Shown: positions 1-41,383 of the stretch, piece after piece | Numbering within the stretch: position 1 is the stretch's first letter | Layout of the letters: every line of letters starts with the position of its first letter | Assembly (NCBI GenBank): GCA_905221615.1 | Contig: CAJNDT010005875.1 | Span: forward strand, 186,001 to 250,000 | DNA length: 64,000 nucleotides | Direction: 5' to 3' | Origin: Symbiodinium sp. CCMP2592 | Taxonomy: Eukaryota; Sar; Dinophyceae; Suessiales; Symbiodiniaceae | Translations under genes and position numbers: made by a program | The notes under the pieces: model-generated | Seen by the model: only the letters and a program-made list of their open reading frames with translations | Database searches by the model: none | Told to the model about the DNA's origin: nothing

Positions 1-970
1 TTGGAAGCAGGCATATGGTTGTGCGTTGTGCGAAAAATACACCTCTCCTCGGGAAAAACACTACTTTCGTGCGAAAGTGCACGAAGCCTAGGAAAAACTG
101 CATTTTCAGCGAGAAAATGCACCAAACCCAGGGAAAACCAAGATTTCTTGAAAATGAGCACCGCGCCTAGGAAATATTGTAGATTTGGGCAAACTGACTA
201 CAGTCATTTGTGACTCCCAGTTTTCCGTTTCAAAAATGAAAGCAATCGGTGCATGTGCTGGCATGTACCAAAACCCTGGAAGGGTCTCCATTTTCAGCCG
301 TTGAACCACCTGTCATTTGTGACTCCCTGGTCGGCTGTTGGACAACAAGGTTCCTGAAGACAAACGTTCAAAAATATCCCAAAACCCTAGGGAGTCACAA
401 ATGACAGGAGTGCCCCCGTCGGTGTCTCTTCAGCTGAGTCCCCAAGCCCACCCGACCCTGCATTTATGGCTACTGCGGTGGCTGCCGTGTTTGTCAAGCC
501 CCTGTAGTGCCTCTGCATTGATGACAGAAACGCACGTAGTACAAGGTCGCAGAATCCCCATCCTCAACGAGTCTGAAGCAGATGCTACAAAAGCCGCGTC
601 ACATTATATTGCGTTGAGTTAGCACTGGAACTCTTCCCTGAAAGCTTGGCATGCCGTGCTTGTGCGTGCAGCTGCCGAACACAACTAGCTGCAATGGAAA
701 TCTGCTGAAAATGGCTTCCAAGAACACGAAGCTTCTGTGATACCCAGGTAGAACAAGGAGAAGGAATCACTTGCTCGCGTTTCCAGGCTTTGAATCCATG
801 CAAGTTCGCCGCGCGACCACACCAGTTGCTGGTCTCGCGCTCGTGGGCCACCGCTTGCATGGATGTATTGTTTGAGGCAGATCAGGTTCTCGTCCAAGCC
901 ACCTGAGGGCAGAAGATCCATCATACCCAAACTTCGGCAGCAATTCAGCACATGTGCAGATATCATACTG
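1..970. other. Non-coding stretch
   Basis: I see no convincing gene here. The first 200 bases hold loosely repeated short hairpins of the kind TTTCGTGCGAAA and TTTTCAGCGAGAAAA separated by GGGAAAA. The rest is mixed sequence whose open frames look like chance. Confidence 0.5.
310..407. repeat. Perfect 19-bp inverted repeat (hairpin/MITE-like)
   Basis: The arm CTGTCATTTGTGACTCCCT at 310-328 is exactly the reverse complement of 389-407. A third, direct copy of the core (CAGTCATTTGTGACTCCCA) lies at 201-219. The 60-bp loop has no open frame of note. This is consistent with a small palindromic repeat element; no flanking target-site duplication is obvious. Confidence 0.6.
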
Positions 971-1435
971 TTACATACTTGTCCTCGGTCTTTGATGGTT
1001 CAATGATGGATCCGAGGAGCATCCGACTTGAAACTCTGCCCCGCTGAAGGTCCGGATGCGGACAGTAACCAGTTTTCTGTGGGGAGAAGCTTGTGCGCCA
1101 ACTATCTTCTGGAAGGGCAAATCAGCCATCCTTCGGCGATCCCGCTCGAGAGCCTCTTCCTCAAGCCTCCGAAGATCAGCAGAGAAGCGCTCCAAGGCCT
1201 GATCTATCTGGTGAGTAAGCTTCAACCCGCAGGGGGCATCTGCAATTAAACCACGTTCTGCTCGGTGGAGCACCTCTAAGAAGTCTCCGCAGTCAATCGC
1301 GGAACTTTCGACTATTTCTCGAAGGCGGCAGAGGCAGTGGGCTTTGAAGAGCCGAGAGCGGCTGACATCTGACGGCATCCTGCGATGCTCATTGACCGCG
1401 CGCAGATCGTCGGCGAGGACGCGGACATGCTCCAT
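971..1435 (-). CDS. Hypothetical protein or exon, coiled-coil-like
   Basis: An ATG-initiated 154-codon frame. Residues about 75-105 are rich in charged heptad-like sequence (ALERFSADLRRLEEEALERD), suggesting a helix or short coiled coil. It is followed by LVTVRIRTFSGAEFQVGC, which has the beta-strand pattern of a ubiquitin-like fold's first hairpin and then breaks off. That pattern fits an exon whose donor lies near 1000, with the rest of the domain downstream on the minus strand. I do not recognise the family. Amino-acid composition is more protein-like than that of neighbouring frames, which is the main reason for listing it. Confidence 0.3.
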   Translation of the reverse strand: MEHVRVLADDLRAVNEHRRMPSDVSRSRLFKAHCLCRLREIVESSAIDCGDFLEVLHRAERGLIADAPCGLKLTHQIDQALERFSADLRRLEEEALERDRRRMADLPFQKIVGAQASPHRKLVTVRIRTFSGAEFQVGCSSDPSLNHQRPRTSM

Positions 1436-3961
1436 GCCGCCATACTCTACCGTGTCACTGCTGCCTGAAATTGCGGCGTTGAAACTGTTGAGTCACGGCT
1501 TGTATCATTAGATATCTGCTGGCATCGTCGCGGCGTGTCACGGCCATTGGCAGCAAGCTCAGGCTTAGCCGTTTCCCGCAACCGTATGCTGGGTATACTG
1601 CTACTGAGAAGAAGGCTGCAGCGGAGCCGCACCCTTCACCAAGTCTGCCTCACACAGGTTGACGGACAATCAGGCATCATTCTACATCTCCGCGTAGCTG
1701 GAGCGAGAGAGTTGTGTGCCTCATACCGTGGCCCACTTGTGGGGCGATTGATGCCGGCAAACTGGTTCCCAGCTGTCCTGCACAGTCACCAGGCAGAGCT
1801 GCCAAATCCCCAAACCCTGCTGCATCTGGCCCTTCACTGTAATGGGCTCCATTTCGGACTTTCAACAAGCCTTATCAAGCCACAGGAGTGATCTCCCCAG
1901 CACCAGCACTAGGTACCAGTTGAAGTTTCATGCATTCTGTCGCGGCACAGGGGGTATCTGACAAGAAAGCCGCAGAGATTGAAACTTGAGATCCTGGGGC
2001 TCCCCGGTTTTGAGGGAGGAGCCGAGGTTACCCACCTGCAAACATCCATACCAGAATCGCATCGTAGCCGTTCACCTGACCAAACCTCCCGCACGCTCAC
2101 TGCAGTCCTTGCGTAGAGTTCTTCGATTCGTGGAGGCGGCACCTCAGCCAAGTGAGCGGTGTTTTTTAATCTGTTTCAATTCTAAGGACGCAAAAACCCC
2201 TTCTGCCGCTGCTTTCGCAGCCTCCGCGCCTCAAAGCGTTGGCACAGTTCTGAATCATTGTATGTCGTCCCTTCCGCGTGCCCTTCCGCGGACCGTTTTG
2301 CAAACGAACCCTTCCGCAAGAGCATAAACCCCACTTGACGTATCTCCCTGACATGCGGCACGCGCGGCAACATGTATGATGAAGCCACCAACAGCCTGGT
2401 TCATTGCTGGGCTTAGGGATCTCGGGATACTGTATGTCTCCTTCGACGGACGTAGTCTTCGTTATTTCCAACACGGCGGCTTACGTATTCGGACGCATTT
2501 GTTGCTTCCGCGCCCTTCCGCGGAGCAATGCCTTCCGCAGCCCTTCCGCGTCCTTCCGCGCGCACAGTCCCAGAGCGTATGATGATCCAGAAGTTCAAGC
2601 GATGACCAAGTCGGCTGGCTCGCTGCCTTTACACAAACTTCGCCAGACGTTTTACCTTGCAGGTTTCTGGAACCCGGCAGCAAGGGGCCTGAGGCCCGGG
2701 CCCATTCTCGCTCCGGATCCGCCATCGCGACTTCCGCTACAAACTCGTGAGAGCTTCACTGAATTTCATGAAATCAACAGGGAGCTACAGGGAGCTACAG
2801 ACGTGAAGCCCTGGTAGGATGTGCTCATCGATTCAGATGTTGACGCTCAAGCCAAGCTGCAAGGCCGAAGATGCACCCATCATGTCCCGGAATCCGTCGA
2901 CAGCGGCTCACTCGCAGGACTGCTCCCCAAACGCTACCAATCACTACCAATCGTTGAGCTTAGACAGCTGGGGCCACCTCTGCAGACATAGCCGTGCAAT
3001 GCACATCCTCTGCGCCACTATAAGGCAATCCTGCTACTAGGACATTGCTCAGCTCGCACTGTCATAGCAAAAACAGCTCTCTGCTCTCGGACGACCAGCA
3101 CAGTGCATGTGACTAATGCTGCCGTTTTCTGAATCCTTCTGACATCTACCACTTTGACAGATGTGCAAGCATGTCTGACAAAGAAGCAGTCTGCTTTGTT
3201 GGTTAGTGTTGCACTGAAGACTGAAAACCCAGTCCTGTACAATTCAGACAGCATGTTGTCTACCTGTTTGGGCCGATGACGCAGCATCCGTGCACAGTAC
3301 GAGTCACAGGCCATGGCTCGCATCGCTGTGACTGCTGGCCTTGACCCTGACAGACCAACACGCAACAATGCAAAACTCCTCACAGCAGAACACTGTTCAT
3401 GAAGACTAATGCCAGGCATGGATGCTGATCCAGGATGTGCGTATCAGGCATAGCATTCGGTGCAAACTCTTTTCAAACCTGCAAGACCATCTTTGGGCGC
3501 TCGACTGGGCTGTTGGGTGGCTAGCCTCCAGGTTCCAGCATTTCGATAGAGTTCTTGGCTGAGTGCTCAGTGCCTTCCGTGATGCGACGCTGATCGGCAC
3601 CGCAGTCCACGACAATGCAATCCACCAAGGGCCTCCCCAAAATCTGCCGGTCGACAGATCAGACGCGTTTCTCTGCAACTTGCTGCCTGCATTCCTCGTT
3701 GGTCTCGAGCTTCTCCAGCTCGTCCAATCTCAAGCAGAATTACTCGTGAGAGCTGTTGGTAGGGCGCAACCTGTCTAAGGTCCTCGCAAGTCCAACCCGC
3801 TGAAGACTTCTCCGAAGACAACATGCTTCCTGAAGTCCAGGGATTTTTGCTGTTGCCACAGGTAACACGAGACAAAACGATATAATGTAAAGCACATCAG
3901 ATACTAGAAAATATAACAATACATAGCAATATAAAAAGTGTATGTATACATATATATATAT
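1436..3961. other. No gene supported; possible decayed exon
   Basis: No long protein-like frame. On the minus strand, about 3720-3540 reads as a charged, coding-like stretch (LDELEKLETNEECRQQVAEK, then a TGA, then further coding-like residues). It could be an exon remnant with one stop. The last 80 bases before the retroelement are AT-rich (TATATA runs) and form its insertion site. Confidence 0.35.
2271..2560. repeat. Cluster of dispersed CCTTCCGC motifs
   Basis: About eight copies of (C)CCTTCCGC(G) occur in two groups, 2271-2322 and 2507-2560. The spacing is irregular, so this is not a simple tandem array. Its role is unknown. Confidence 0.5.
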
Positions 3962-4186
3962 CAGTTACTACGATCGCAGACGTTCGGTGCCCTCACTGAA
4001 CAGACTATCGGCGATCGCACCTTTTTCATGCGACCGCAACGTGGGAGTCGGCCACAGTCGGATCATCAAAATTTCACTTGATCTTCACAAGTCCGATCGG
4101 ACCCCCGATCGCCGAGGGGTGCGCCATGGCATTCGCCACAGACCGCAACATCATCCGATCGGACACATCAGACAAGCGATATTCCC
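3962..4186. repeat. Split direct repeat A1
   Basis: This 225-bp copy begins CAGTTACTACGATCGCAG and ends GCGATATTCCC. I see no difference from A2 over the whole length. It forms the outer, 3' (sense) end of the element. Confidence 0.9.
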
Positions 4187-4197
4187 CGCGAACAAAA

Positions 4198-5167
4198 TTA
4201 AAAGTCTTCGATCGGATCATCGGGCTCCGGCGACGGCTCCTCCATTGGATCATCGTCGAGGGGGGCCGCGCCGAGCAAGTCAATCAACTGCCGCTCGGCG
4301 GCACGAAAAGCTGCATCAGGAGCAGCTTTGGCTCTCGTCCGAGCGGGAGTAGCGCGAGAAGCCTGGTACGCCGCGATCTGGGCGGGAGTCGGGGGCGCCT
4401 TGGTCGGCGGACTCGAGCTCCTCGTAGACACCATGATCTCGGTGCCGGGAGGGAGCTGCGTACCGGGCGGGAGCTGATCTAGCCGCCGCGGGGGCTGCCC
4501 CGGAATGACATAGTGAGCCGGTCCGCTGATGCGGACATCATCGGGCACCGTGTCGAGCGATCTGGGGGGCTGCCCTGGAACTATGTACTGAGCAGGCTCG
4601 GCGAACAAAGGAGAACGCCCTTTCGGAGCCGCTCGGCCTTGGCGCGGCAGACCAGCCTTGGGATCCACATAGTAGACCGGCTGATCCATGCCTCTGTTTC
4701 GATGAGCTCTGGCCGGGGGCGCTTTGGGCACCGGCCGCTGAACAGAGGGCACGCCCATCACTTGATCCCAGTTGAGGGGAGGATCTGCCCCGTGATTGTA
4801 GCCGGCCGGCTGGTGACGATCGCGATCACGATGAGCCGGCGGCGTGACCCAGGGGGTTTCGGCAGAAATGACACATATCCAGGCGACGATCGCAAGCCGT
4901 GCACAAAGGAGTGCGCTGGTTGGGGGCCCACTCTTCGCGGGGGACCCGAACGGCTGCGTAACATTCGTCTTGGCCGTCCCCGTCGCAGAAGCAGCCGGTG
5001 AACAGGCCGCAATCCACGCAGGGACGGCAGAGCTGATCTGTGTCGCCGAAAGCGAGCGCTTGAAGGCCAACGTCGTTGCGAGGATCCCGCATACCGAAAA
5101 GAACAGATAGGGTGGAGAGGGTGGGATTTTTCGGTATGGCCCGATCGGCTATCGCCAAAATGGCCAC
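4198..5167 (-). pseudogene. Cys-rich zinc-binding-like plus Pro-rich protein, split by a +1 shift
   Basis: Two overlapping minus frames together look like one protein. The upstream frame (down to 4826) has ten cysteines spaced C-x2-C-x2-C-x5-C-x-C-x6-C-x19-C-x2-C-x6-C-x2-C, which looks like a zinc-binding module. It runs into a stop soon after the last CHFC. The downstream frame (to 4198) is protein-like only from about 4860 onward. It is Pro/Arg/Asp-rich and contains two copies of a (Q/H)Y-hydrophobic-PGQPPR-x-LD repeat. Moving from one frame to the other needs a +1 shift near the run AAACCCCCTGG at about 4865. This could be an indel, a programmed shift or an unseen intron. No ATG is evident: the first open codon of the upstream frame is a GTG inside repeat B1. 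The gene lies between inner and outer repeats, downstream of RT. Function unknown. Confidence 0.5.
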
Positions 5168-5248
5168 GGAGAAGATAGATCAAGTCTGTTCCAACGATCG
5201 CGAAACTGATCTCCTAATTCCTACCCACCAGACCGATAATTAGGAGAC
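5126..5248. repeat. Split direct repeat B1
   Basis: A 123-bp copy ending GATAATTAGGAGAC, directly abutting A2. It differs from B2 at three adjacent-region positions (GGCTATCGCC against GGCTTGAGCC). Confidence 0.9.
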
Positions 5249-5473
5249 CAGTTACTACGATCGCAGACGTTCGGTGCCCTCACTGAACAGACTATCGGCG
5301 ATCGCACCTTTTTCATGCGACCGCAACGTGGGAGTCGGCCACAGTCGGATCATCAAAATTTCACTTGATCTTCACAAGTCCGATCGGACCCCCGATCGCC
5401 GAGGGGTGCGCCATGGCATTCGCCACAGACCGCAACATCATCCGATCGGACACATCAGACAAGCGATATTCCC
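5249..5473. repeat. Split direct repeat A2
   Basis: A 225-bp copy matching A1 from CAGTTACTACG to GATATTCCC. The RT-RNase H stop codon lies immediately beyond it at 5480. Confidence 0.9.
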
Positions 5474-5479
5474 AGGCCC

Positions 5480-8320
5480 TCAAACTCCTTTCGGAAAGTC
5501 CGAGAGGACAGTGATCCAACCACACATCAGACCTGTAGCGACATCACCACGAGAGGGATTATCCGCCGGGTTCGAATCGGTCGGTACCCGATCGATATAA
5601 ACAGAGCACCTAAGCTCCAGAACAAGCTCCCAGAAAATTCCTACGAGCTCGCAGACGTCCTCTTTTGCAGAGTAGCCTTTGATCAAAGCTGCCTCTACAG
5701 GCTCGGAATCGATAAAGAGGAGGACCAGCTTTCCACGGATCTCTTCCCTGAAAGTCTGTATCGCAGCGACCGCGGCCAAAAGTTCGATCATGCAAATTTG
5801 GGTTTTCCGGGGGAACCACCTCGACATGATCTGCCGTGACACCCCCGAGGCGAATTGCCTAGGCTGATCGTCCCTAGTGAACATCACTCCTCCAATCATC
5901 TCAGAAGAGGGATCCTTGGGGTTCGAGCTCGGCGCCGATCCATCCGTGAAAATCACCACGTCGGACTTCCGCGGCCCCGAACTGGGGATAGGCCTCGGAG
6001 GCCCATGCATCACGAGCGTCCGCCACTTGTAGAGGGAGTAGAGGAGAGCAGGCGATAGGCTCGTACTGACCGTCTTCCGGGAGTATTGCCTCTCCGACAG
6101 AGATCTCAGGAAGGCTCGGCCGATCTTCCCCCAGAGCTGCGAAGCGCCGAACATCAGCTTTCCTCTGAGCTTCCCGGCTTGGCCGGGAGACATCTCTTCG
6201 TGTTCCAGGATCGACGAGATCTCGTCGAAGAGCTCCTGCTTCCTGGACTTCTTGATCTTGAGCAAGTACTGATCGAGGTCATAGGTCACGCCCAGGATCG
6301 TGGGATCCGAGCAGAGCTGGAGCTTCTGCTGATCGAACCGGGCCCCGAGCCACCAATGGACCTTCTCGGCCAGCGCGAACACACTATCTGCCGTGGCCTC
6401 CGGCTCGAAGCCGTACTTGTCGTCATAGAAGTTGAAGCCGGCCACGATGAACACGCGCCTTAGAATGTCGGTAATCGCAGCCGAGCGGCGGTTGTAGTTA
6501 TAGACGGCCGAGACCAAGCCGAAGGAGTGGCCGACCATCACGAAGAACGCCACCTTTCCCGTGGCCGGATCCTTCAGAGCGACCACACTCCACTTGCGAT
6601 GGGCCGGAGAGATCGGCACCTGCCGATAGGCTCGCCGCTCGTCCAGGACCCAACCACGTAGCGGGGACTTCGGCAGCCGCGAGCGCAGCCACTTGATCAC
6701 CGCCACGTTCGCGTCCGTCGAGGGGAGTTCGAGTTTCTCGGTGACGATCGTCGCCATGTTGATCCCATTTGAGGTAGCACTGTCAACTCCCCTGACTTTG
6801 TTCTTTTGAACCACTTCAAAGCGCTGAGTAGGGATCCAACGATCATCGCCGACGAACTCCGAGACTTCGGCCTCGTCGAAGAAGGGACCGATCGCCGACC
6901 CTTCTCGAACATCTTCCATGGTCCCTTCCCAGACCTTGGGAGAGTGCTCGGTGATCGGAGATTTCCGAATCGCGCCTAACACCTTCGATCGAAATTCCCA
7001 GGCCCTCGAGCGAAGGGCATCAACCGAGAGATGCTCCGCATGAGGTTTGCGATCGGGCTTCCATCGGTGGGAGGAGGCAATATCGCCGACGATCGGCATG
7101 CCCGCCATGATCTGATCTACCAGGTCAGTGTCACTGCATTTGGCCTCATTCATGAGCTCCCGCCAAAGGGCGACGTGGAAGAACTGACCCATTTCCAGTG
7201 GACGATCGTCTGGGCCGCCGCGAAGAAGACGGCGCAAATGCCGATCTGGTATCTGCTTGAGCAAGGAGTCAGAGGACGGGAGCAGATCCTGAGCTCGCCG
7301 TTCCCAATGCTGCAGAAGAGAGGCTCGACGATCGCGCACTTGAGCAGGATCACGAACAATTTGCTCCAGAACATCAAGGAGGTCTGGGTCGATATCCGCG
7401 TCCTTTGTGAACGGGTGCGTAGCTTCCAAGGCGAAAGCGATCGCTTCACCCGGGTGCATCTCCGTGCCGATCAGCGGAGCCACGACAGACTTCTTCATCT
7501 GGTAACCCGCGGCGACGGCCTTCTTGCCGGCCGATCGTTGACGATGTTCCGCGGCTTTGACCGGGGCGCCATGGGGCCGCTTCCGATCGGAGTCCGGGGT
7601 CTCGAGCGCAAAAGTGAGAGTTTGCCAGGACTGATCCACGTGATCACCTGTGTTCACCGGCGCCGGCTGGAAGCCCAACTGAAGGAGTTGTTCGAACTCG
7701 TCGGCAGGGATCCGATCGACCCCCTGCACTGAGTACACGGCGAGGACCACCCGAGTTCCGATCCAGGGCAGAGTCGCGTGCAGAGCTTCCTTAGCGTTGA
7801 AGAGGATCTTATTGTCGACGAAGTCGGTGAGGAAACCGGGGATGGAGCGTCCCTCGATTTCTCTCACATCGGGCCCGAGCGGGTCTTCGATCCAGAGCCC
7901 GCCTCCTTCAAACGACCCGAGCTTGAAGACAATGTTCGGGATCGGCTCATTGCCCGAGTCACGGTGAGGTTCGGCCTCCTGATCGTAGAGGACGGCGAAC
8001 GACGTGAAGAGCGCCTCAGGAGCCTGTTGAGCGATGTACGTGGTGATCGCCTTGATCGACCACGGCCATGAGTGACAGGACGATCGCAGTCTTGTGATGC
8101 CTCCATGGCGATAGGCTCCCGCGAAGAAAGCCCCGCCTCGTTCGTCGGCAGCCTTATGCTGACCCTGAACAGGGAGCTCTGTAGCCAAGTCGAGGATCTC
8201 CTCACGCAGAAGCGGAGCTCGCTTTTTCAGGAGATCTTGTGCGCGGGATTCCAGATCACAGCCCCCACGCGCGCCGGACAAGGTAAGGTGAGGAGCACTA
8301 TCAGATTCGCTGGGAACCGA
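5480..8320 (-). CDS. Dioxygenase-like / reverse transcriptase / RNase H polyprotein
   Basis: The open frame runs from just after a TGA at 8321-8323; residues here are numbered from 8281 (933 residues). No ATG marks a start, so it is probably made by read-through from the upstream Gag-like ORF. Residues about 90-187 carry H106-x-D108, then LGSFEGGGLWI, H168 and R177, the ligand and 2-oxoglutarate-binding pattern of Fe(II)/2OG dioxygenases. RT follows: D547 in VLDERRAYRQ (motif A), FGLVSAVYNYNR (motif B) and FYDD with D620/D621 (motif C). RNase H has D780 (TDGS), E833, D858 and D902 (VPTDSNPADNPSR). The RT and RNase H signatures are those of DIRS/Ngaro-type YR elements. All catalytic residues that I can check are present. 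The role of the dioxygenase-like part is inference; it could be a degenerate beta-helix fold without activity. Confidence 0.85.
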   Translation of the reverse strand, partial: SVPSESDSAPHLTLSGARGGCDLESRAQDLLKKRAPLLREEILDLATELPVQGQHKAADERGGAFFAGAYRHGGITRLRSSCHSWPWSIKAITTYIAQQAPEALFTSFAVLYDQEAEPHRDSGNEPIPNIVFKLGSFEGGGLWIEDPLGPDVREIEGRSIPGFLTDFVDNKILFNAKEALHATLPWIGTRVVLAVYSVQGVDRIPADEFEQLLQLGFQPAPVNTGDHVDQSWQTLTFALETPDSDRKRPHGAPVKAAEHRQRSAGKKAVAAGYQMKKSVVAPLIGTEMHPGEAIAFALEATHPFTKDADIDPDLLDVLEQIVRDPAQVRDRRASLLQHWERRAQDLLPSSDSLLKQIPDRHLRRLLRGGPDDRPLEMGQFFHVALWRELMNEAKCSDTDLVDQIMAGMPIVGDIASSHRWKPDRKPHAEHLSVDALRSRAWEFRSKVLGAIRKSPITEHSPKVWEGTMEDVREGSAIGPFFDEAEVSEFVGDDRWIPTQRFEVVQKNKVRGVDSATSNGINMATIVTEKLELPSTDANVAVIKWLRSRLPKSPLRGWVLDERRAYRQVPISPAHRKWSVVALKDPATGKVAFFVMVGHSFGLVSAVYNYNRRSAAITDILRRVFIVAGFNFYDDKYGFEPEATADSVFALAEKVHWWLGARFDQQKLQLCSDPTILGVTYDLDQYLLKIKKSRKQELFDEISSILEHEEMSPGQAGKLRGKLMFGASQLWGKIGRAFLRSLSERQYSRKTVSTSLSPALLYSLYKWRTLVMHGPPRPIPSSGPRKSDVVIFTDGSAPSSNPKDPSSEMIGGVMFTRDDQPRQFASGVSRQIMSRWFPRKTQICMIELLAAVAAIQTFREEIRGKLVLLFIDSEPVEAALIKGYSAKEDVCELVGIFWELVLELRCSVYIDRVPTDSNPADNPSRGDVATGLMCGWITVLSDFPKGV

Positions 8321-9601
8321 TCAGTGGTTGCCGATCATGGCATGCGGCTCCCCACAGACCATGCACAGGTGCTTGAAACGACAGTTGTCGCCAGACACGC
8401 ACCCGAGCGAGGAGTTGAAGTAGTGGCACCGGCGAGCGCCCTGCACCTTCTTGGCCGCATCGGCGATGAGCTTCCACTCCTTCTCTGGGATCCGATTGTC
8501 CCGCTTGAGCTTCTTGTTGGGATCTTCCTTAACGACCTTCTTCGGCGGATCGTCCTTCGAAGGAGTCTGCAGTCGCTTCTTCTTCTTCCCTCCGCCCCGA
8601 GGCCTTTTGAACGGGGTGTGGGGAGGAGGAGGAACTTCATCCTCCTTGACCTGATCAGGGTTATTCGCGAGCTGCTGGCGGTTCTGTTCCATCTTCGAGA
8701 GAGTCGCTGAAGTGCGAGCATCGTTCCACAAATATTTGTGGTTGGTGAGCACCTCGACCAGGGCCTGCGAGAACGAGATGTACGTCGCCCTCTGTTCAGA
8801 CAGCAGGCGAAAGATCTTCTTCCGGATAGATCGGTCCGCCGCCATGAGGAATGGCAAGCCGGGACATTCCGAGCGGAACTGCTCCAATTCCTGCAAGTAC
8901 TTCAGCGGGCCCTCGGCGCGTGAGAACGCGCAAATGTTGAGGTATTCGAGCGCCATGAAGAAAGCATGCAGACGGTTGAACAGAGTCGTGACATCGGTGA
9001 CCGGCTCGGGTTGATCAGCCTTAGAGATGGACAGGAGATCTTCGGCGTTCCGAGAAAGTCCAGACTTGACCACTATAACATCCGAGCGGGTCCTGATCTC
9101 GGCCGGCTCGTAGAATGGAACTATCCCATGGATCAGGAAATCGCGGGACAGCCGTTCGACGAACTTCTTATGCGGCTCTTTGGCGTCGATCAGGATGACG
9201 TCGGGGTGAACCCTCACGAAGCGATCGCGAAACTCCGCGTGGTCCTCTTGGGAGAGCTCCGGGATCTTGTTCGGGTCTTCCTCCATACGAGCTCGCCGAG
9301 AGGCGTATTGCGTTTGCAGCGCTTGAGCAGCTTGCCACACCGCTGCCAAGGACATCACGGAGAGCTCCTGTGCTGCCGCATCAGCCCCGAGCGGGGTCAA
9401 GTCATCTTGCCACAGCCGGCGGATTGTCGCCTTCGCCGAGGTGAGATCCTGCCCCAGCATTGCGAACATCTCGACTGTGAGGAGACCTTTGTCGGCCGAG
9501 AGCCTGCAGAGGGCTGGATCTAGCCCCTGTCTCCCGAAGATCTGGCGCAGGTTCAGCTTCGGGGTCGCCGCCTCATTCGCGTATGCGGTGCGATCGACCA
9601 T
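8321..9601 (-). CDS. Gag-like nucleic-acid-binding protein with CCCH zinc finger
   Basis: ATG-initiated, 426 residues. The N-terminal three quarters is helical and unrecognised. A Lys/Arg-rich segment (about residues 320-370, including GGGKKKKR) precedes a CCCH finger, C392-x8-C401-x5-C407-x3-H411, followed closely by C413-x2-C416 and H420. CCCH fingers commonly bind RNA, so a nucleocapsid-like role is reasonable. The frame ends in a single TGA. The same frame then stays open into the RT polyprotein with no further stop, which makes this the Gag half of a Gag-stop-Pol arrangement. Only 87 bases separate its start from the stop of the recombinase gene. Confidence 0.7.
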   Translation of the reverse strand: MVDRTAYANEAATPKLNLRQIFGRQGLDPALCRLSADKGLLTVEMFAMLGQDLTSAKATIRRLWQDDLTPLGADAAAQELSVMSLAAVWQAAQALQTQYASRRARMEEDPNKIPELSQEDHAEFRDRFVRVHPDVILIDAKEPHKKFVERLSRDFLIHGIVPFYEPAEIRTRSDVIVVKSGLSRNAEDLLSISKADQPEPVTDVTTLFNRLHAFFMALEYLNICAFSRAEGPLKYLQELEQFRSECPGLPFLMAADRSIRKKIFRLLSEQRATYISFSQALVEVLTNHKYLWNDARTSATLSKMEQNRQQLANNPDQVKEDEVPPPPHTPFKRPRGGGKKKKRLQTPSKDDPPKKVVKEDPNKKLKRDNRIPEKEWKLIADAAKKVQGARRCHYFNSSLGCVSGDNCRFKHLCMVCGEPHAMIGNH

Positions 9602-9688
9602 GGCTGCCTAACGAGCTGTCTGAAAAGAAAAGCTACGGTCAGGGAGAGGCTCAGCTCGAGTGGCCATCGTGACTGCGAACAGCTGTGT

Positions 9689-12385
9689 TCACGGCTCCGT
9701 AAAGATCTTACCGGAACACAACGAGCACATCTGAGTACTCGGCGGAATCTCGCCGAGATCCTCGCACTCGGTGATCGCGTACCGGCCGCAGAGCGTTCGC
9801 TCCGTGCCCGTACCATCTATATACATGGCATGATATTTAAGACTCAGATCCTTTGAGGACCCCGCAGCCGATCTAGCCTTGGTGACATAGGTCAGAGCGA
9901 GATCACCGAAGTCGACCAGATTGGTATCGTCGGCCTCGAACTCCGGTGGAGATTTCCAGTCGGATGCTATCCTCTTCGTGAGCCGCTTGACCATCTCGAT
10001 CGAGATCTCTTTGCGGCTCCGAGCGTACTTCAGGACCAGCTGGCTCGGATCCTTCCAGTTCGCTTGGAGCCCGATCTCTTTATCGGGCTCCTGCGCCTGG
10101 ACCGCCGCCGAGAGCAGCGTGACTCGGCAGGAGTGCCAGGTGATCTCCGGCACGATCTTCAGGAGCTCCTTGAGCCGCTCGGGCGAGATGTGCCCGCGCT
10201 TCAGATCGTCCGAAGCTGCAGTAGTGAGCACGTACCGCAGCCACAGGATGCTCCGTTGGTAGCTGGCAGGCCGATCGGCGAATCGCTCAGCCGATTCGAG
10301 CTCTTTCATGAAGTACCCCATAGACTGGGTTAGCCCAAGAGTTAACTATTAGTTAAAATTTTGGCTGGAGCCAAAATTTTAACTAAAAGGAACCCTACAG
10401 GAAGGACGCAGGGAGCAAAAAGGGAACACGTAGATATCCAAAATCACAGTTTTGAAATGGCGCTGTGATTTTGGATATGCTCAACCTGCGATTTTGGATA
10501 TCATATCCAAAATCACAGGATTTAGTTAACTCGTTTAGGCCCGGGCGAGGCCGAAGTTTCGACGAAACTTCGTCGAAGTTTCGGCCCCTCACTGGTCGAA
10601 GTTTGAAGGGTCACAGGTCGAAGTTTCAGGGCTGCAGGTCGAAATTTCGATGGGGCTTTCGTCACAGAAATGCAGCATCTTTTGTGGTTTCACCAGAGAG
10701 AAGTCGAAACTTCGACCCATGAGGGGTCGAAGTTTCGACCCTTGGGGGTCGAAGTTTCGACCCCTGCCGGGCCAGACCTAGATCCAAAATCGCAGGAATT
10801 CGGGAAGTGTGATTTTGGATATAGATCCAAAATCACACGTTGAGAATAAAACTGTGATTTTGGATCTGGGATCCAAAATTTTGCGCTGTGATTTTGGAGA
10901 ACTCGACCCTGTGATTTTGGATATCATCTCCAAAATCACAGGATAAGATAAACATCCTGGATTCCTGTGATCTAGGATATTCCCCGGTGTTCTGGCAAAG
11001 ATAACTTTCGGGCTAACCCGGTCTATGGGGTAGTCGCGATCGTCCATTTCGAACGCAGCTGCGTGCCATCCGTCTTCCATCCAGTCGGATCCGGACACGG
11101 AGACTCTGGCCGCCGCGAACCGCGTTCCCTTCTTTTGTCGCTCGACCTTAGTCTGCCAAACCACCCCATAGAGAGCCTCGTCCTTCAGGGCGAGCGCCTC
11201 GGGCACGACGTGGAGCGCGTCGTCGAACCTGAGGGACGAGTAGATCATCACGAGAACCCGCCATGCGAAGAACGCCATGGGGAATTGGCTCGACTTAAAA
11301 CGAGCGCACACGAACCACTCGAGCGCCGCCACCAAGATCAGAGGGATGGGAACCGCTTCCCTCGTCTCTTTCCCGCGATCGCCATAGACCTTCTTCTGCA
11401 AGGCCATGATCCGGGGATCGAGGAGGTCGGGCAACGACAAGCCGATCCGCTTGCAGATCCATTTGACCGCCCCACGTACCGAAGGTATCACGGTGGGGCC
11501 GCAACCTCGGTCGGAGAGATCTAAGAGGTACTTGACGAGCACGTCGGTAGTCAGCGGGATCACCACTAGGTTCTGCGACCTCGCCCAAGTCTCAATCCTC
11601 TCCCAGTGACGAACGCACTGCTGGATAGTGCGGAAACCGCCACTCTCGAAGACGATCAACCTCAATGCATTCATCTCATCTTGAGACAGGGGTGATCCCG
11701 GCTTCGGGTTGCCCGCGATCGCGGCGTGCTCGCCGCACCTCTCCACGATCGCTTTCAGCCTCATGCCCCACTTTCGGGCCTCGCCGAGCTCACGGGTTTT
11801 GAGCGATGCCTGCGGATCTTCAGGCCTCGGCTCGATCGCCCGCGGCCTCTTGGCGAGCGGCAATGGCATAGGAGGCTCCTTGCCAGTCCCCTTCGACTTC
11901 AGTGGCGATCGCCCGAAGACGACCGGAGCTTCAGCCAAGCCGAATCCCAGATCAGTGGCCAGATCAGCCCAGCCCGCTGCTGCCGTGCTACGAACCAGCA
12001 CAAACAACAGCTCGATCGACGGAACCCACCTGCCGAGCTCCTCCTCGTTCTTCCGCCGATCTGGCGTGTGGAGTTCCTCGAGGGCAGGGACAAGATCAAT
12101 GAATGCTTGCACACACTCAGCGATCGTCCCGTCCGAAACAGCCGTGAGCTTCTCGAACTGAGCCATCCGAAGATCCACCAACCATTGGCAAAATTCATCC
12201 CCGAACAGGGGGAGGGATAGGATCTTCCGAACGGACCTATCCATGCTGGGCCTGAACAGCTGCACGAACGATCGCACGTGCCTGCTAATGGTAACCGAGC
12301 GCCGTGCCTGAGACAGGTATTGATCAATCTCACTTCCGGCAGAACATGCGCTGGGATCTAGCGCGCCGAGAGGATCGCTCGGCAT
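9689..12385 (-). pseudogene. Tyrosine recombinase, interrupted by a 715-bp insertion
   Basis: The N-terminal part begins at ATG 12385 (a longer non-ATG frame reaches 12466) and includes R386 in SSLRFDDAL (box A) and K413 in WQTKVERQ. The C-terminal part (10313-9689) has the H-x-x-R motif (TWHSCR, H codon at 10135, R codon at 10126), a Trp in the usual H/W position and the nucleophile Tyr (LKYAR, codon at 10027). Between them sits an inverted-repeat element (10316-11030) flanked by TA. Insertion plus duplicated TA is 717 bp, so both halves remain in the same frame, but the reading meets a stop at 10778 inside the insertion. The enzyme would integrate the circular cDNA of the retroelement. After the last catalytic motif a short Cys-containing tail (CSLC) precedes the stop. 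Confidence 0.8.
10316..11030. mobile_element. MITE-like element with 21-bp terminal inverted repeats inside the recombinase gene
   Basis: The left end CCCCATAGACTGGGTTAGCCC (10316-10336; 21 bases, one mismatch) mirrors 11010-11030, and similarity continues weakly for another 10 bases. A TA dinucleotide flanks both ends (10314-10315, 11031-11032), as for Tc1/mariner-type insertions. Inside are several inverted copies of TCCAAAATCACAG and many copies of GTCGAAGTTTCGAC, so it can fold extensively. No transposase frame is present, so the element is non-autonomous. Confidence 0.75.
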
Positions 12386-12498
12386 GTTTGTTCCGCGGAA
12401 GAGCCCGGCTGATCCGCCAGGAGGCTTCGGTCGCGCGGCGCACCACTCTCTTAGGAGCGTGCACAAAAACCGACCATCACCTAGGCTTCGATCGACAA

Positions 12499-14124
12499 CT
12501 ACTCCGAATTGTCCATCGTGTAGGGCCCCGTTGACGATCTGGCCGGCGGGTAAGCCGGGGCGAACGCCTTCGGCACCGTGGTCGTAGTGGAGGGGGAAGC
12601 CGTGATCTCTTGGCCCGTCTCCTCCACCCTGACCGTGCTGATCCGCTCGTACTCCGCCTGCTCACGGTGCTGGAGCACGTCGGTGAAAACCTGAGGCGTG
12701 ATCGCAGCCGACGTGCGCGAGAATCGCATGTCGGCCCTCATGCGATCGCGGGCATCGGTGACGACCTCCTCGGCAATCTGCTCCTGGCCGAGCTGGCCCT
12801 CCTCCGGCACCGGAACAGTGCTCACCCTCTGGTCGAACGGACGAACTCCAGTGGGCAGACCCTGAGCTTAGATCTAGCCCGTACGTGGAAGTTCCCATGA
12901 TCCATCGGGAACTCGTCTGTCGCAGTTCCCACTTGCCCCTGTTCGTTGGCGAACGCACTGTGGTACCAGGGGGCGATCACCGCAGACAGCTGCGCGAACT
13001 GCTGGATGTGGTCGCTGGTTCCGACAGGCCTGGATCGTGTTGATCAGAGCGGGGCCCGAGATGTGGCTGACTGTGAGCCACGTGCTAGGCACCGAAGTCC
13101 TCCCGCACTTGAGATCGATCCGGTTATTGGCGTCCCGGAACCGAAACTCAACACGATCGGCGTCGTTCCCATAGCCTTCTCGGGACGAGCGTTCTGTCAC
13201 CCTGAGCTCACAAGTGCTCATGGCATGGTCGCTCGCCATCACTGCTCCTCTCGGGCCGATCGTGTAGACTCGGGCTCCAACCTCGAACGAGGTCACGGAG
13301 ACCTTCCATCCAACGAAGACCGAGATGACGATCGAGGGTCGGAACCATCCTTCGTTGGCTGACCGGATCAACACCTCGTCACAGAACTGCTGCTGGACAG
13401 AAAGATCCGAGTCCGAGCGGTAGCCCCTGAAGACCCAATGGAACAGGACCTCGTTTCCATTGAAGACCTTCACATCCACATAGGTGGCCGAGGTATCGAA
13501 CATCACCGGCCAAGTGAAGGGCTGGAAAGCCGGGTGCGATAGCGCCCGACTCGCGTAGGAGTCCCACTGAGCACATGGTCCCCCTGTTCTCGAAGACATC
13601 GAAAAGAGCAGAACTGCCTTGATGCCATCGAGCGTATAGTTCGCGAACAGCGAACAGTGGTAGCCCGAGTTCGGGGGCATGACCGAGTCCCGCTCCGTCA
13701 GCACATTGATCGAGCTGGCGGCATTCGAGATGATCTCCTCGGCCAGCCAGTTCTGGAACGGGGAGATCACCCGGTCATCGCGGTTGTCGATGACGAGGAG
13801 CGAGTTCTGGGTCTCGTCCTCTTCCTCGACCACGAGCTGGCGAACGAACTCAGGCCGCTGAACAGCGAAGGGGTTGTGAGCAGCAGGAGCCCCACGGTCA
13901 CGACGTCCACGACGATCGTCGCGACCCCAGCCTCCAGAGCCCCAATCGCCGGATGCGGCAGCTGGAGCCGCGGGATTCTCGGGAGCCTCTGCCTCGCCTG
14001 GAGTATAGAATCCCCAGTTTCCCGGATTCTCAGGCTGACCAAGCCGGCGAGGCAACCCGAACTGGGGAGCCACCGGGGCCGCCATCTGCCGACCTTGAGC
14101 GAAGCCAGCGGGAGGGAACGACAT
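12499..14124 (-). pseudogene. Retroelement ORF1, unidentified, with two compensating frameshifts
   Basis: ATG at 14124. The first 100 residues are Pro/Gly/Ala/Arg-rich (GDWGSGGWGRDDRRGR). Residues about 100-345 form a compact, Trp- and Phe-rich region that I cannot assign. Near 13035 the ATG frame loses its protein-like character and stops at 12874. A +1-shifted frame carries a convincing continuation (APWYHSAFANEQGQVGTATD) to about 12850. The original frame then takes over again (VPVPEEGQLGQEQIAEEVV) and ends at 12499. So one longer protein, about 540 residues, seems to have been hit by two indels. As the 5'-most ORF it could be a structural (Gag/capsid-like) protein, but no motif proves it. 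Confidence 0.5.
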
Positions 14125-14168
14125 TGCTGCACTGGAGCGATCTCTCCTGTTCCTCCCACGCCGAACTT

Positions 14169-14291
14169 ATTTTTCGGTATGGCCCGATCGGCTTGAGCCA
14201 AAATGGCCACGGAGAAGATAGATCAAGTCTGTTCCAACGATCGCGAAACTGATCTCCTAATTCCTACCCACCAGACCGATAATTAGGAGAC
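14169..14291. repeat. Split direct repeat B2
   Basis: The outer copy of B, 120 of 123 positions identical to B1. It is the 5' (sense) end of the element and directly precedes AT-rich flank. Confidence 0.9.
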
Positions 14292-17412: not shown

Positions 17413-17584
17413 TGGGCCAAGTTCTCGTGGTTGGGTCGTGTAACCCCCTATACCCAGTACGAACTGCCACTTGTGCTTATTGTCCCGGGTGGAGCAATGG
17501 CAAGACACCTGGAGATCACACCAGCCAGAAGCGGACTCCCAGGACACACCCAACACAAACTTCGATACAAGATGCCGGACCATC

Positions 17585-20500
17585 ATGACGGACATGCTTG
17601 AGTTTATGCGGGTGGCCCTATGTGGATGGCTGAATGGTTTGCAGCTGATTGCAGGAGCGACCCTGATGGCTGTGCTAATCTCAGCGAGTACGAAACGATC
17701 CTGCCGGTGGAGGCCGGTCCACAGAAGAATGCAGGTCATCAACATGAGAGTGCTGCTGGCCTTCGCGATCCTCTCTGTTTCGGAAGCAGGCGTGGACAAT
17801 GACCGACTGCATGAGCCCCATCCCACGATGCAGTGGAGACAGCGCCTACCTGCAGTCCCCCGGCAAACTGACCTTGAGTTGTGGGCATCAGGACAGCTTA
17901 CGGCAAGGGAGCAGATGTTGAGGAATGAAGACAGATGGATAGCGGAAAGACCATTGATGCACTCTGAGGGCGAGAGTGCACCACCAACGCTCACTATCCC
18001 TGTCATGCGCACCGATGACGGTCCACCGGTGCTCACGGAGGAGGAGCGTCGGGCTACACATATTTCGGTGTGGCTCGCCTCACCCTTCTTTGAGGTTGAA
18101 GTGGTGGACCTCGGGATTGCCTTCCCGATGTCGCAACAACGATTCCTGGATGCAGTTCGTGGCACCACACGATGTATGCCGGACTGGGCTGAAACCATTC
18201 TCCCAACAACGCCACAGGTGGGACCCTACTACGGGAGCTGTGTCGCGATTCCGGCGTGGATCCCTGCGGCAGGAAAACACGTCCTGGTACTTGACAACCG
18301 AGCCATTGGGGGACACACCTTCCCCTTCTACCACGAGGGTAATGTCACACGCGCGAGCCTACGCAAGCAGGTGCCTCAGGAGGACGAGAATGCGGTTGAG
18401 TTCTACGTTTTCGGTGCCTTATCTCCTCTTGGGGAAGAAGGACGAGCCCCGATACAAGGTGGCCTGATCAAGACTGTCTTCATTGGAGAGCCCTGCGACT
18501 GGGAACCCCCACTGCAGCCTCGGCTTGATGATCCCCTGTGGTGGTGCCCCCGAGCAGGTGTACCGCAGGGCGACCGAGCCCCACATGTGGTATACCAAGG
18601 GCCTGAGGACCAGTTAGTCTACGAGGACTTACCGGGAGCTGATGAACATCGAGCGGATCTTGCCGAAACCCTTCTGCAGTATCCGCCGAATCAGTGCTGG
18701 ATTAAAGTCCCTGATCAACCAGCTGAGGCCCTTTGTCATGCTGGCAGGAGTATCACTAAGCAAGTCGCAGTGAACCCTGGCCCGCGCAGTACAAAGGAGG
18801 ATGACCCTTCGGCGACTATCATTTTCCTGGATCTGCGAGGTTTGACCCACTTCCCGCAATGGGTACTGCTCACCGGCGACCTCTTCAACACAGTTGAGTA
18901 CCTCGAGGGCATCCAAATTCCCGTTGTACCAGGCTGGACGGTGTTGATTGAGGGCGGCGAAGCTACTGACAACCCGGAAGTATTGCGTGTCCGTGATGGC
19001 GAGACCCTCAACTTCTTCATGAAAGAGGATGGGGAACTCACTCCTTCCCCGGCCTCCCATCATGAAGATGGACATGATGAAGATGGTTCGGGTGATGACG
19101 ATATGGATTCCACACGGAACTCTGGGACGAGTGACGACTCGATTGCCCCTCCTCTACCAGATGGACGACCACGAGGCCCTCCTCCGCCCCGTCCGGTCAA
19201 CCGAAGCCGATCACCTAGAAGACACCAGGATAGCCCCCAACCTACATCGATTTCGCTTGCTACCGCGACCTCACAGCCAACCTTCGACATGACAAAGATG
19301 ACTCTGCAGTGGCCCCACTGCTTCGAGGAATTATGCCCATGCTTCCACCCGTGGCCACCAGATTGGTTGGGATGTCAGCTAGAAGGCATTCGGCTACACC
19401 CGGCCGCCAGAGATGCTGTTCAGAAGTCAGTCCACTGGGCTGATTTGATGCCCAAGTTCTTACAAGGACAAGGGGAGTTCCACCTCTACACTGACGGCTC
19501 GGCACATGAAAGCACTGGTCGAAGTGGCTATGCTGTGGTCATCCTGTGCAAATTGGGTGCCCTGGTTGCAGTGCTGGGTGTGCTTGGTGGCCAGATCATG
19601 GGCAACACGCAGTCCGACTGGTATGCAACTGACACCCCGGCCCTCTACGCGGAACAAGTGGCCCTGGCATCAGCCTTCCTTTGGATCCTGCAAGCTCGCT
19701 CGATATTCCCACGCATGCAGTGCAAGCTTTTCATTGATTGCATTTCTGCGGGCAACGCAGCGTCGGGCCACTGGAGGCCAATGAATGCTATGGGTGCACA
19801 GACACGGGACCTCGAACTCTTCCTGAGAGAAGTCGATGGCATCAACATAGCGATCGAGCACATCAAAAGCCACGTCGGCAACGATTGGAACGAACTCGCA
19901 GACAGCATTGCCAAAAGCGCTATGAAAGGCTGTCGGCAATTCGCGGAACCACCCAGCGCAACTGTTCGCGCTTTCATCAGCCAGGACCTCTCCTGGCTTG
20001 GAGTTGAAATGATGACCAGGAGAACGGGAGCCTTGTGGTATGATAGTGGAGGTCTATGCTGGGATGAAACACCATACCACCCGTCCGACCTCACCCTAGA
20101 GGAGCTCATACCGACTACCCCTCCGTTGCCACTCCGTGCGGAGACTGACCAGGGTGACTTTGCCCTTCAAGTTGGATCTTTCAATGTGCAGGGATTGGCG
20201 AACAATCATCGCTACATGGAGGAACAATTTGAGTACCACGATCTTGGTGTGGTGTTCCTCCAGGAAACCAAGCAGAAAGGAGGGCAATGCTGCAGCAAGA
20301 GATTTCTCAGACTGGCATCCGATGCCCAAGTCCACTGGGGTGCAGCCATCTGGCTGCGACGAACAGATGGATTCATACTTGTCAATAGCCGCCCGGTACT
20401 TCCACTGGAGGAAAACATCACCACGGTGCATCAGGAGCCCAGAATGCTCGCAGTCACCATCCAGATCGGGGACAACAAGTGTGGCCTGATCTCAGCCCAC

Positions 20501-23500
20501 TGCCCCCACGCTACAAAGCCACAGGAACGTGACCTTTTCCTTTCACGGTTCGAGAAAGTGTGTGCGAGACTGCGGGACTGTGCTATCCTGCTATGTGGTG
20601 TAGACCTTAACGGCAGGGTGCAGCCCAACATCCCCAATGTGACGGGCGAACTTGAAGACGGTGAGCCGGATGCGACAGGCAAACGCTTCACAGAGATCCT
20701 GGGCAACAATGGAATTTGGATCCCGGCCACCTACCCGACCCTGCACGAGGGTGCCACGGCCACCTACATGCACCCCTCTGGTGCTGAGAGTCGTATTGAC
20801 TTTCTCGCACTAGGAGGTCGAGCTCGAGTCATTGAGGCTCGCAGTTGTGTCAACCCCCAGCTTGACAACTGCAGTCCGAATGACGATCACCGCGCAGTCA
20901 CCCTCCAGCTCCGAGGCCAATTCTCGACTAGGGCTCTCGGCCAGCGAATTGTACGGAAGCGCTTTGATCTGGCAAAATTGTGGACGGATGAAGGACGGAA
21001 ACTCATTGGGGTCGCCTGTGAATCCTTCCCTCAGCCTGGCTGGGGAACCCACCCGGACCGCCATTGCCAGATGATTCAGAACCACCTTGTGGAGACCCTG
21101 CACGCACACTTTGAGAGCAAAGGCCACAATGGTAGAGCTTCGTACATTCCTGATGAAGTTTGGATCCTCAGACAGAGGAAACACTCCCTGAGATGGAGGT
21201 CCCGAAATCGCAGGCTGGCTTGGAAAAACCTGCTCAAGACGGCCCTCTACAAATGGAGAACTGGCGAGGAGGATCCGAATCACGAGGAATGCAGCAGACA
21301 GGCTGCCCTATATGAGGTGATTGCGGCGGCCGTACGCTTCACCACTGGGAGGATCCGGCGACTCATTGCGCAGGCGAAAGACACCTTCCTACGAGGAGTT
21401 GCAGCTGAAGGACATCAAAGTGCTTCAGCAATCATGCAGAGAGTCAAGGCGGCTGGACTTGGAGCAAAATCTAAACGCTCGGTTGGCCGCGCGCTCCCCC
21501 GGCTCCTCAACCCGGCAACTGGTCTGGAAGCTGCAAGTGCAAAAGATCGTGACACCATTTGGTTGGAGCATTTTGGAGCGCAGGAAGAGGGCGAGGTCAT
21601 GCCTACGACAACGCTGCTCCAACGCTGTTCTGCATGGCGGGAAGAGCGGAACTTTGATTGGACCTGGAAGGATTTGCCAAGTGTGAGAGACATTGAGGAC
21701 GTGATGCGTCGCACTAAGAGGAACAAAACTCCAGGGCTTGATCACCTACCTAGTGACTTGTTTGCCTCATGTCCGGTGGCATGTACGAGCCTATTCTACC
21801 CCCTCTATGTGAAGACGCTCCTCAATGGCAGACAACCTATTCAGTGGCGAGGCGGGGTCCTCTACGAGGCCTTCAAGAAGAGTGGACAGGAGTACCTCCC
21901 CGAAAATCATCGAAGCCTGTATGTCTCGAGCTTCGCGGGTAAAGTCCTCCACAAGGCTATGCGGTCAAAGATCGAGGAAGGGGTTAACTCCCTGCTCCAC
22001 CCCCTCCACTGCGGCACCCGCCAAGGAACTCCAGTCCTATTCCCGTCCATCTACGTTGTGTCACACCTGCGGAAGTGCGCGAGGCAACGCCGCAACGCTG
22101 CCGCTGTCTTTATAGACACAAGGGCGGCCTACTACAGAGTGGTCAGGGAATTGGTGGTGGGTGATCTGCAAGCAGGTAGGGATGTCGAAAGTCTCTTCTA
22201 CCGATTCGGTCTTGATGGGGAAGATATTTCGGAGCTGCTGCAGCTGATCCAAAGTGGTGGTATGATGACTGCTGCTGAGGTCACCTCTCCCATACAAGCT
22301 GCAGCCAGAGACTTCCTACGATTCACCTGGTTCAGCTCCCGTTTTACGGATGGCGGTCGAGTGTGCGAGGCCGCTGCTGGATCCCGACCGGGGGCGTCAT
22401 GGGCTGACTGCATATTTGCCTTCTTGTATGCCCGGGTTCTCTACCGCATCCAGGAAGTGCTATCTGGAGAAGATCTCGGTGCAGTCCTACCGTGCAACAT
22501 GGATGCTGGGCCCTTCGACTGCAACCCGGATCAGCAGCCCACGTGCTTGACGGAGATCATGGACTCAACGTGGGCTGACGACTCAGCCTACATTGTTGAG
22601 GGTGACTCGCCGGGTGACCTACTACGCCGCGCACAGAGGATCACGGCAGTTGTGTTGACGGTGTTTCGTAGCCACGGCTTGGACCCAAATCTCAAACGCC
22701 ACAAGACGAGCATCTTGCTCAGACTCTGTGGTGCCGGATCTAGGGCGGCGCGCCACGAGTTCTTCACCGACGGAAAGGCAGTTCTTCGCCTACCCGACCT
22801 CGGCGAAGAAATACATGTGGTGTCCCACTACAAGCACTTGGGTGCTATGTTGGATGCGGTGGCAGCAATGCGACAGGAGAGCCGCTACCGAACGGCGATG
22901 GCTGCTGCGGCGTATGACGCTGCCAAGGATCTTTTGCTACAGAATCGGGCGGTGTCGCTTGCCACTAGATCGGAGCTGTACCAAACGGCGGTCGTATCCA
23001 CCTACCACAACCTCGCCCTTTGGATACCGGAGGGAGATGCTTGGCACAGACTATGTGATGGTTTTTCCCGAATCACACGACGTCTACTGTGCCACTCAGT
23101 CCGGCCAGAGGAGTTGTGGCGGCTCCCGACACCAGTCATCCACTGGATCACAGGATGCTGGCCTCTGCCCTTCTTCGCCAAACGAGCTCGCCTTTCGACC
23201 TTGATGTCATTGGCGCGGACCGGGCCGCCGCCACTGTGGGCCTTGTTACAAGCTGAAGGGAAGTGGTGTGCCACTGTCCAAGAGGACCTCAGGTGGCTTG
23301 TTAAAGGGGCTGATGCCGACTGGCCAGGAGCCACCGACACTGAATGGCCAAACTGGGTCCGTGTTATGCGCGAGGCCCCCGAGAGGGTTAAGCGACGAAC
23401 ACGGAAAAGGCTTTGTGAGGATTTCTTGGAGTTCAAGGAGGCAGCTATCCTTCGAGCATGCCACTGGAAGCTTTCTAGATCCCTTGTCCATGCGGAGGAT

Positions 23501-39245: not shown

Positions 39246-39644
39246 CGCGCGAGGCACGATGTAAAAGGCAACCAGTTGGCAACTCAGACAGCTACCCTTT
39301 GAGCCAGAATCAGAAAGTGAGCTCCTTCAAACACAGAACCCCGAGCGTCGACAAACATAGGGCGGAGATCCGGCATCTTTTCTCTCGCAAGCTTAAGATT
39401 GCATGTTGCGAGGGCGCCAAGTACGCGCCAGCGTTGTCCCTCACTTAGGAGCTTTGGAACAGCTGGGCTTTTTAGCTCGCAGCATGTGTTTCGAATGTTC
39501 GAACACCTGTACAAGCCGGCCAAACCCGGCTTCGCGTACGATTCGTGAACGCGAGATAACACAATCTGTTGTTGGGACAGGCAACCTATATCGAGCTAGG
39601 AGCCTGCGAAAGTCAAATTCAGAAATCTTGCAAGACACCGGATT

Positions 39645-41123: not shown

Positions 41124-41383
41124 CGCGCGAGGCACGATGTAAAAGGCAACCAGTTGGCAACTCAGACAGCTACCCTTTGAGCCAGAATCAAAGTTTTCCG
41201 AACATCCAGGATTGCTCTAATGACTCGAACGTGACCTGACTCCCCAGTGATCTGCCCGGCTCAGCAGACTCAGGTCCCTGCCTGGGTTTTGCCCAGGGCC
41301 TCCTGCGCCAAGCCACGCCGGAAAAAAGCCTGGCAAGCCAACAGAAAAGAAGGAAACTGAAAGACACCAATACAATTTTCAAT

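Follow-up and report, generated by a model that had tools for sequence, protein, structure and literature searches.

The window analysed here, a stretch of 64,000 nucleotides from Symbiodinium sp. CCMP2592 (contig CAJNDT010005875.1, positions 186,001 to 250,000), contains on its minus strand a whole retroelement copy (3962..14291) whose Pol frame carries a domain resembling the 2-oxoglutarate (2OG)/Fe(II) dioxygenases of the TET/JBP type. The copy is bounded by split direct repeats, found by a repeat search of the window, which in minus-strand order run A1, open reading frames (ORFs), B1 and A2, one further ORF, and B2. This A-B-A-B arrangement is that of the tyrosine-recombinase retroelements (DIRS/Ngaro/VIPER). 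The frames follow one another as an unassigned ORF, a recombinase-like region, a Gag-like ORF and Pol, and the further ORF, flanked by A2 and B2, is small and Cys-rich.

The Gag-Pol junction and the Pol frame

The Gag-like ORF (8321..9601, minus strand), with a CCCH-type zinc-finger-like stretch at its C terminus (weak zf-CCCH_4, E-value (E) 0.55), and the Pol ORF (5480..8281, minus strand; the open frame begins at 8320) share one frame, with a single in-frame TGA between them (8321..8323, minus strand) in all 10 distinct copies, two of which are well diverged (the comparison held 13 rows, three of them repeating a copy). Pol consists of the dioxygenase-like domain, a linker, a reverse transcriptase (RT; approximately 6002..6871, minus strand, from alignment with related Pol proteins, motif C ...FYDD... 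being read by eye) and an RNase H (approximately 5492..6001, minus strand; weak RT_RNaseH/RNase_H matches, and a PHROG RNase H in the related copy L009, E 0.084). RT and RNase H thus lie in one frame, as in tyrosine-recombinase retroelements, the RNase H matches being below cut-off. Pfam finds RNase H alone in the window Pol, also below cut-off; the RT part aligns with the Pol proteins of L011, L012 and L014 (E about 1e-21 to 4e-24), and RVT_1 is found below cut-off in L011 and L014.

In the Pol frame no Met precedes residue 262, which lies downstream of the dioxygenase-like domain, and in the full-frame comparison residues 1-45 show a ratio of nonsynonymous to synonymous change (dN/dS) of 0.06-0.12. 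The shared frame and the conserved TGA make stop-codon read-through the probable route to Pol and the simplest account of its expression, a non-ATG start or splicing being the alternatives. Pol, and its oxygenase with it, may depend on read-through of this codon.

Fold and family assignment

The domain covers about residues 46-208 of Pol (7658..8146, minus strand), as delimited by predicted fold and conservation. A first-pass annotation of this DNA had placed a dioxygenase-like domain ahead of the RT at 7700..8290; its position holds, and its extent is corrected here to a core of about 7658-8146. The motifs named there are found in the minus-strand frame 8320-5480, namely H106-R-D108-S-G-N111, LGSFEGGGLWI (121-131) and H168-ATLPWIGT-R177, where H106-x-D108 (7958..7966) and H168 (7778..7780) would be the metal ligands and R177 (7751..7753) is the proposed 2OG ligand, all on the minus strand.

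The expected beta-helix dioxygenase fold is recovered by AlphaFold models and structure comparison. A 21-row model of the domain gives a high-confidence fold; it replaced a first model of 14 rows that was only fair (pLDDT, the predicted local distance difference test, 73.8) and whose top match was CcTet by Foldseek and ALKBH5 by VIA-align. The domain bears the marks of the 2OG/Fe(II) superfamily, i.e. a double-stranded beta-helix in the predicted structure, an HxD...H triad and a basic residue past the last His, and among its best structural matches are Naegleria TET1, TET2 and Coprinopsis CcTet, with 11-20% sequence identity in the structural alignments.

Among Pfam families, Tet_JBP (PF12851) is the closest profile and the sole 2OG family obtained: in one set it matches 8 of 12 members, with E 0.029 at best, and in another 7 of 15, with E down to 0.0055, as well as one protein in each of three further sets of 6, 8 and 10. 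For the window protein alone, Pfam returned no dioxygenase family and never Tet_JBP, and the same holds for many other single members. When the whole genome was searched with Tet_JBP, 93 of the 150 candidates scored reached E<=1, the lowest E being 2.2e-4; of these 93, 64, including all of the top 20, lie in frames of at least 800 aa, the best in a shorter frame (550 aa) having E 0.0045; one of the 14 control genomes (E. coli) also matched at E<=1. The strongest relative, L067, matches Tet_JBP with E 9.3e-7 (28.7 bits, below cut-off), followed by others at 1.6e-5, 4e-5 and 5.8e-5, and matches the window domain with E 1.4e-26 (Z set to 1e6). TET2 heads the sequence searches of the PDB both with L067 (E 0.61) and with the profile of a 22-row alignment described below (E 0.42), neither being significant alone, and the TET2 alignments cover the ligand motifs, i.e. 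the HRDxHN (HxD) and LHAT stretches. In TET2 the Asn at H+5 contacts 5-methylcytosine (5mC), and N111 occupies that place here. Three other profiles (A2, A4 and A5) gave no match in the PDB, and PHROGs returned for the domain three weak families only, of other or unknown kind.

The TET/JBP resemblance noted in the first pass is borne out by profile, motif and predicted fold and stops short in score, which stays below the Pfam curated cut-off. Given the profile, PDB and motif evidence, we regard the domain as TET/JBP-like, apparently a divergent branch of these 2OG/Fe(II) dioxygenases as judged from sequence and model, rather than counting it as an established member of the family.

Two other kinds of 2OG enzyme have to be weighed at this point. 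An enzyme of the AlkB/ALKBH5/FTO-like branch, repairing or demethylating the RNA or cDNA of the element (e.g. N6-methyladenosine, m6A, or N6-methyladenine, 6mA), is unlikely: AlkB-type Pfam families appear in none of the 12 or 15 members at E<=10, whereas Tet_JBP does, and the alignment of the HRDxHN and LHAT stretches with TET2 speaks against that branch. Somewhat less probable again is a protein hydroxylase (P4H/PHD-like) acting on Gag, RT or a host chromatin protein, since prolyl-hydroxylase Pfam families are likewise absent from the 12 or 15 members and, in the structure comparison, TET-type structures outrank prolyl-hydroxylase-type ones.

Conservation and selection

Conservation was examined at several distances from the window copy. 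The 30 near rows, taken from full-length genome matches, comprise the window, 7 near-identical copies and 22 at 86-99% identity; H106, D108, N111 and R177 are each present in 30/30 and H168 in 27/30, one row having an internal stop. In 16 rows with 25-84% identity to the window domain, the H, D, N, H and R positions are invariant. In both a 15-row alignment (about 13 groups) and a 22-row alignment (about 18 groups, several rows being close pairs), the residues retained are H, D and N, the second His, T and W, and several Gly; in the latter each of the two His, D, N, T, W and G stands at 22/22, and Arg is found in 21 rows and Lys in one (L075). Because the rows were chosen for their similarity to the window or the protein P0016, or, in the case of L067-L074, for their Tet_JBP score, intact domains are over-represented among them. 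The four residues on which the first-pass annotation had relied are hence kept in most copies and in divergent families, which indicates that the motif is more than chance.

Median dN/dS among the near rows is 0.075 over 347 pairs with dS 0.1-2, pairs which are not independent. Three full frames give 0.04-0.07 for the domain and 0.02-0.04 for the RT, and the pair L011/L012 gives 0.11 for the domain and 0.10 for the rest; the L014/L015 pair has too few changes for an estimate. The domain is held intact by purifying selection in tyrosine-recombinase-type elements.

These data bear on the idea that a former enzyme no longer catalyses and is retained because it binds DNA, RNA or iron. The loss of H168 in 3/30 near rows and in the database proteins P0003, which represents a 128-member cluster, and P0004 would fit it; the iron ligands stand at 22/22 over about 18 diverged groups, which a non-catalytic role would not need, and we hold it to be improbable. 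An open frame arisen by chance, or a decayed remnant, as the silence of Pfam on the window copy alone might suggest, is hardly credible in view of the dN/dS of about 0.07, the high-confidence fold and the many near-identical copies with long open frames.

Copies and other carriers

A search of the 1.098-Gb genome with the domain gave at least 150 matches (150 of 150 scored; 4,993 passed the first look), and many of the copies among the matches listed share 99% identity and have an open frame of 946 aa. A second query (150 of 5,112 candidates scored) recovered further families, some in frames of about 1,000 to 3,500 aa; on contigs C3402, C5096, C313 and C5218 the domain lies within open frames of about 3,500 aa. 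A protein search with the window Pol returned 11 relatives, several from Symbiodinium species.

The oxygenase is also present in an integrase-type element, besides the tyrosine-recombinase-type ones under selection. L075 (2495-9901, minus strand) encodes a 2,469-aa polyprotein of Ty1/copia type in which the oxygenase sits between integrase and RT (rve E 0.047, weak; Tet_JBP E 6.5e-4; RVT_2 E 1.5e-15, over cut-off), with Lys in place of the 2OG-binding Arg; the relatives P0011-P0013 show rve matches below cut-off. A tree of the 22 rows, in which the rows are long and the root serves drawing alone, splits P0011, L075 and L071 (integrase-type or presumed so) from the 19 others with support of 89/88, below the star of the tool.

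In a further set of loci and proteins (L076 at 611-4459, plus strand; L016, L017, L035, L067, L070 and P0019) a methyltransferase-like segment stands beside the oxygenase in the same frame, after it in L076 (which contains L067) and L016 and before it in P0019. Its motifs, VFSGT/VFCGTGG and PPCGT, were read by eye; the L076 segment matches no Pfam family or PDB entry, and Methyltransf_31 is weakly matched in L016 (E 0.11) and L017 (E 0.059).

Proposed function

Our reading, to which we assign a probability of about 0.68, is that a TET/JBP-like dioxygenase has been fixed in the Gag-Pol of a tyrosine-recombinase-type retroelement and most likely oxidises 5-methylpyrimidines for the element's benefit. 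The read-through product would be a Gag-dioxygenase-RT-RNase H fusion, packed with the element RNA, that would oxidise the methyl group of a 5-methylpyrimidine (5mC, or T to 5-hydroxymethyluracil, 5hmU) in the element cDNA, the circular intermediate or the integration site; the new copy might in this way escape methylation-based silencing or carry host-like modified bases. More generally, a domain kept by selection across related elements implies that these elements may edit their own or host DNA.

No Tet_JBP match in the genome exceeds the curated cut-off of 34.9 bits, the best of the 150 scored reaching 29.6 bits. Losses are more frequent among the database proteins: all four ligands are kept in 4 of 10 same-family members (P0001-P0010, mostly automatic gene models), the changes being H168R in P0003 and P0004 and D108E in P0006, while P0008-P0010 are cut or scrambled models.

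Concerning the substrate, we place 5mC first, at a little under even odds; the case for it is good, CG methylation being widespread in Symbiodinium according to the available part of PMC5890265, and it is at least as plausible as thymine. Thymine, a candidate because dinoflagellate DNA contains 5hmU, seems possible at lower odds; another nucleic-acid base is doubtful, and a protein more doubtful still. The CpG observed/expected ratio stands at 1.08 for the window element, at 0.80 for the remaining window and at 0.68-0.83 for four other loci that hold domain-bearing elements together with their flanks, and it gives no consistent sign of protection or C-to-T change.

Most repeat classes of Breviolum are enriched in 5hmU, Maverick/Polinton most strongly, and the principal function of the base, its authors propose, may be modulating repeat activity (PMC11071213, from part of the text); Maverick/Polinton are DNA elements, other than the classes studied here. 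A bolder proposal is that retroelements of at least two classes would be the main store of TET/JBP-like oxygenases in the genome and a source of its 5hmU, each hydroxylating thymine in its own cDNA; we think this improbable, and if true, the 5hmU in repeats would be written by the repeats themselves. On the same reading, the methyltransferase-like segment of related elements would form with the oxygenase a writer-and-oxidiser pair within one retrotransposon.

Repeats, recombinase region and neighbouring frames

The split direct repeats, all on the minus strand, are A1 at the 5' end in element sense (14169..14291; 98% identity to 5126-5248), B1 (5249..5473; 100% identity to 3962-4186), A2 (5126..5248) and B2 at the 3' end (3962..4186). 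Copy comparison recovered B1, A2 and B2 in copies C1968, C5373 and C36, and A1 in C1968; the domain-bearing relative L014 has similar repeats. The first ORF of the element (12874..14124, minus strand) encodes a protein without Pfam match. The small Cys-rich ORF (4198..5148, minus strand), whose open frame overlaps the end of A2, has a similar stretch in the S. microadriaticum protein P0006, and for this reason it may be an element gene.

The tyrosine-recombinase-like region (9689..12661, minus strand) is split in the window copy into two open frames (12661-10778 and 10345-9689) by a 714-bp insertion with inverted repeats (10316..11029), missing from 4/4 copies compared; in these alignments the junction shows an overlap of 3 bp, which points to a short duplication of the target. 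In L009 the recombinase frame is open and weakly matches a phage integrase profile of PHROG (E 0.011), with no match in Pfam and no recombinase in the PDB search; the HxxR and Tyr of the recombinase were read by eye.

Elsewhere in the window, a LINE-like open frame of 2333 aa (17471-24472, plus strand) has below-cut-off matches to RNase H, RVT_1 and a C2H2 finger, together with an endonuclease-like stretch recognised by eye. A tandem pair of 496-aa frames, nearly identical to each other, lies at 37767-39257 and 39645-41135 (minus strand); their C-terminal part resembles a Mei2-type RNA recognition motif.

Comparison with known systems

Naegleria TET1, TET2 and CcTet are like the window domain, whose HxD and LHAT stretches align with TET2; to our knowledge none of the three is fused to a reverse transcriptase. 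VIPER of kinetoplastids encodes its recombinase ahead of the RT, where the window element has its recombinase-like region, and is not known to us to carry an oxygenase domain (no search aimed at it was made). It shares with the window element the split direct repeats A1 ... B1 A2 B2, which are described for VIPER, Ngaro and PAT-like elements alike (PMC6681497, from part of the text).

A literature search over titles and abstract openings found no report of a TET/JBP-like domain in a dinoflagellate retrotransposon, and the available parts of PMC12344493, PMC12477816 and PMC11453091 hold nothing on one. Mobile elements with a TET/JBP dioxygenase of their own are described in fungi, in Kyakuja and others; these carriers, unlike the window retroelement, are DNA transposons and some Helitrons (PMC12730594, from part of the text). 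SymbioDIRS-Dnmt3 of Symbiodinium resembles the window element in its A-coding-B-A-B repeats, its tyrosine recombinase, of which the window element has a putative counterpart, its host group and a DNA-modifying domain in the Pol frame with the RT, and differs in that this domain is a Dnmt3 cytosine methyltransferase instead of a TET/JBP-like oxygenase (available part of PMC5890265, whose main text lacks the words "dioxygenase" and "TET"). Known before were thus TET/JBP domains in fungal DNA transposons and DNA methyltransferases in dinoflagellate retrotransposons; an oxygenase built into Pol joins these two themes and gives candidate enzymes for dinoflagellate base modification.
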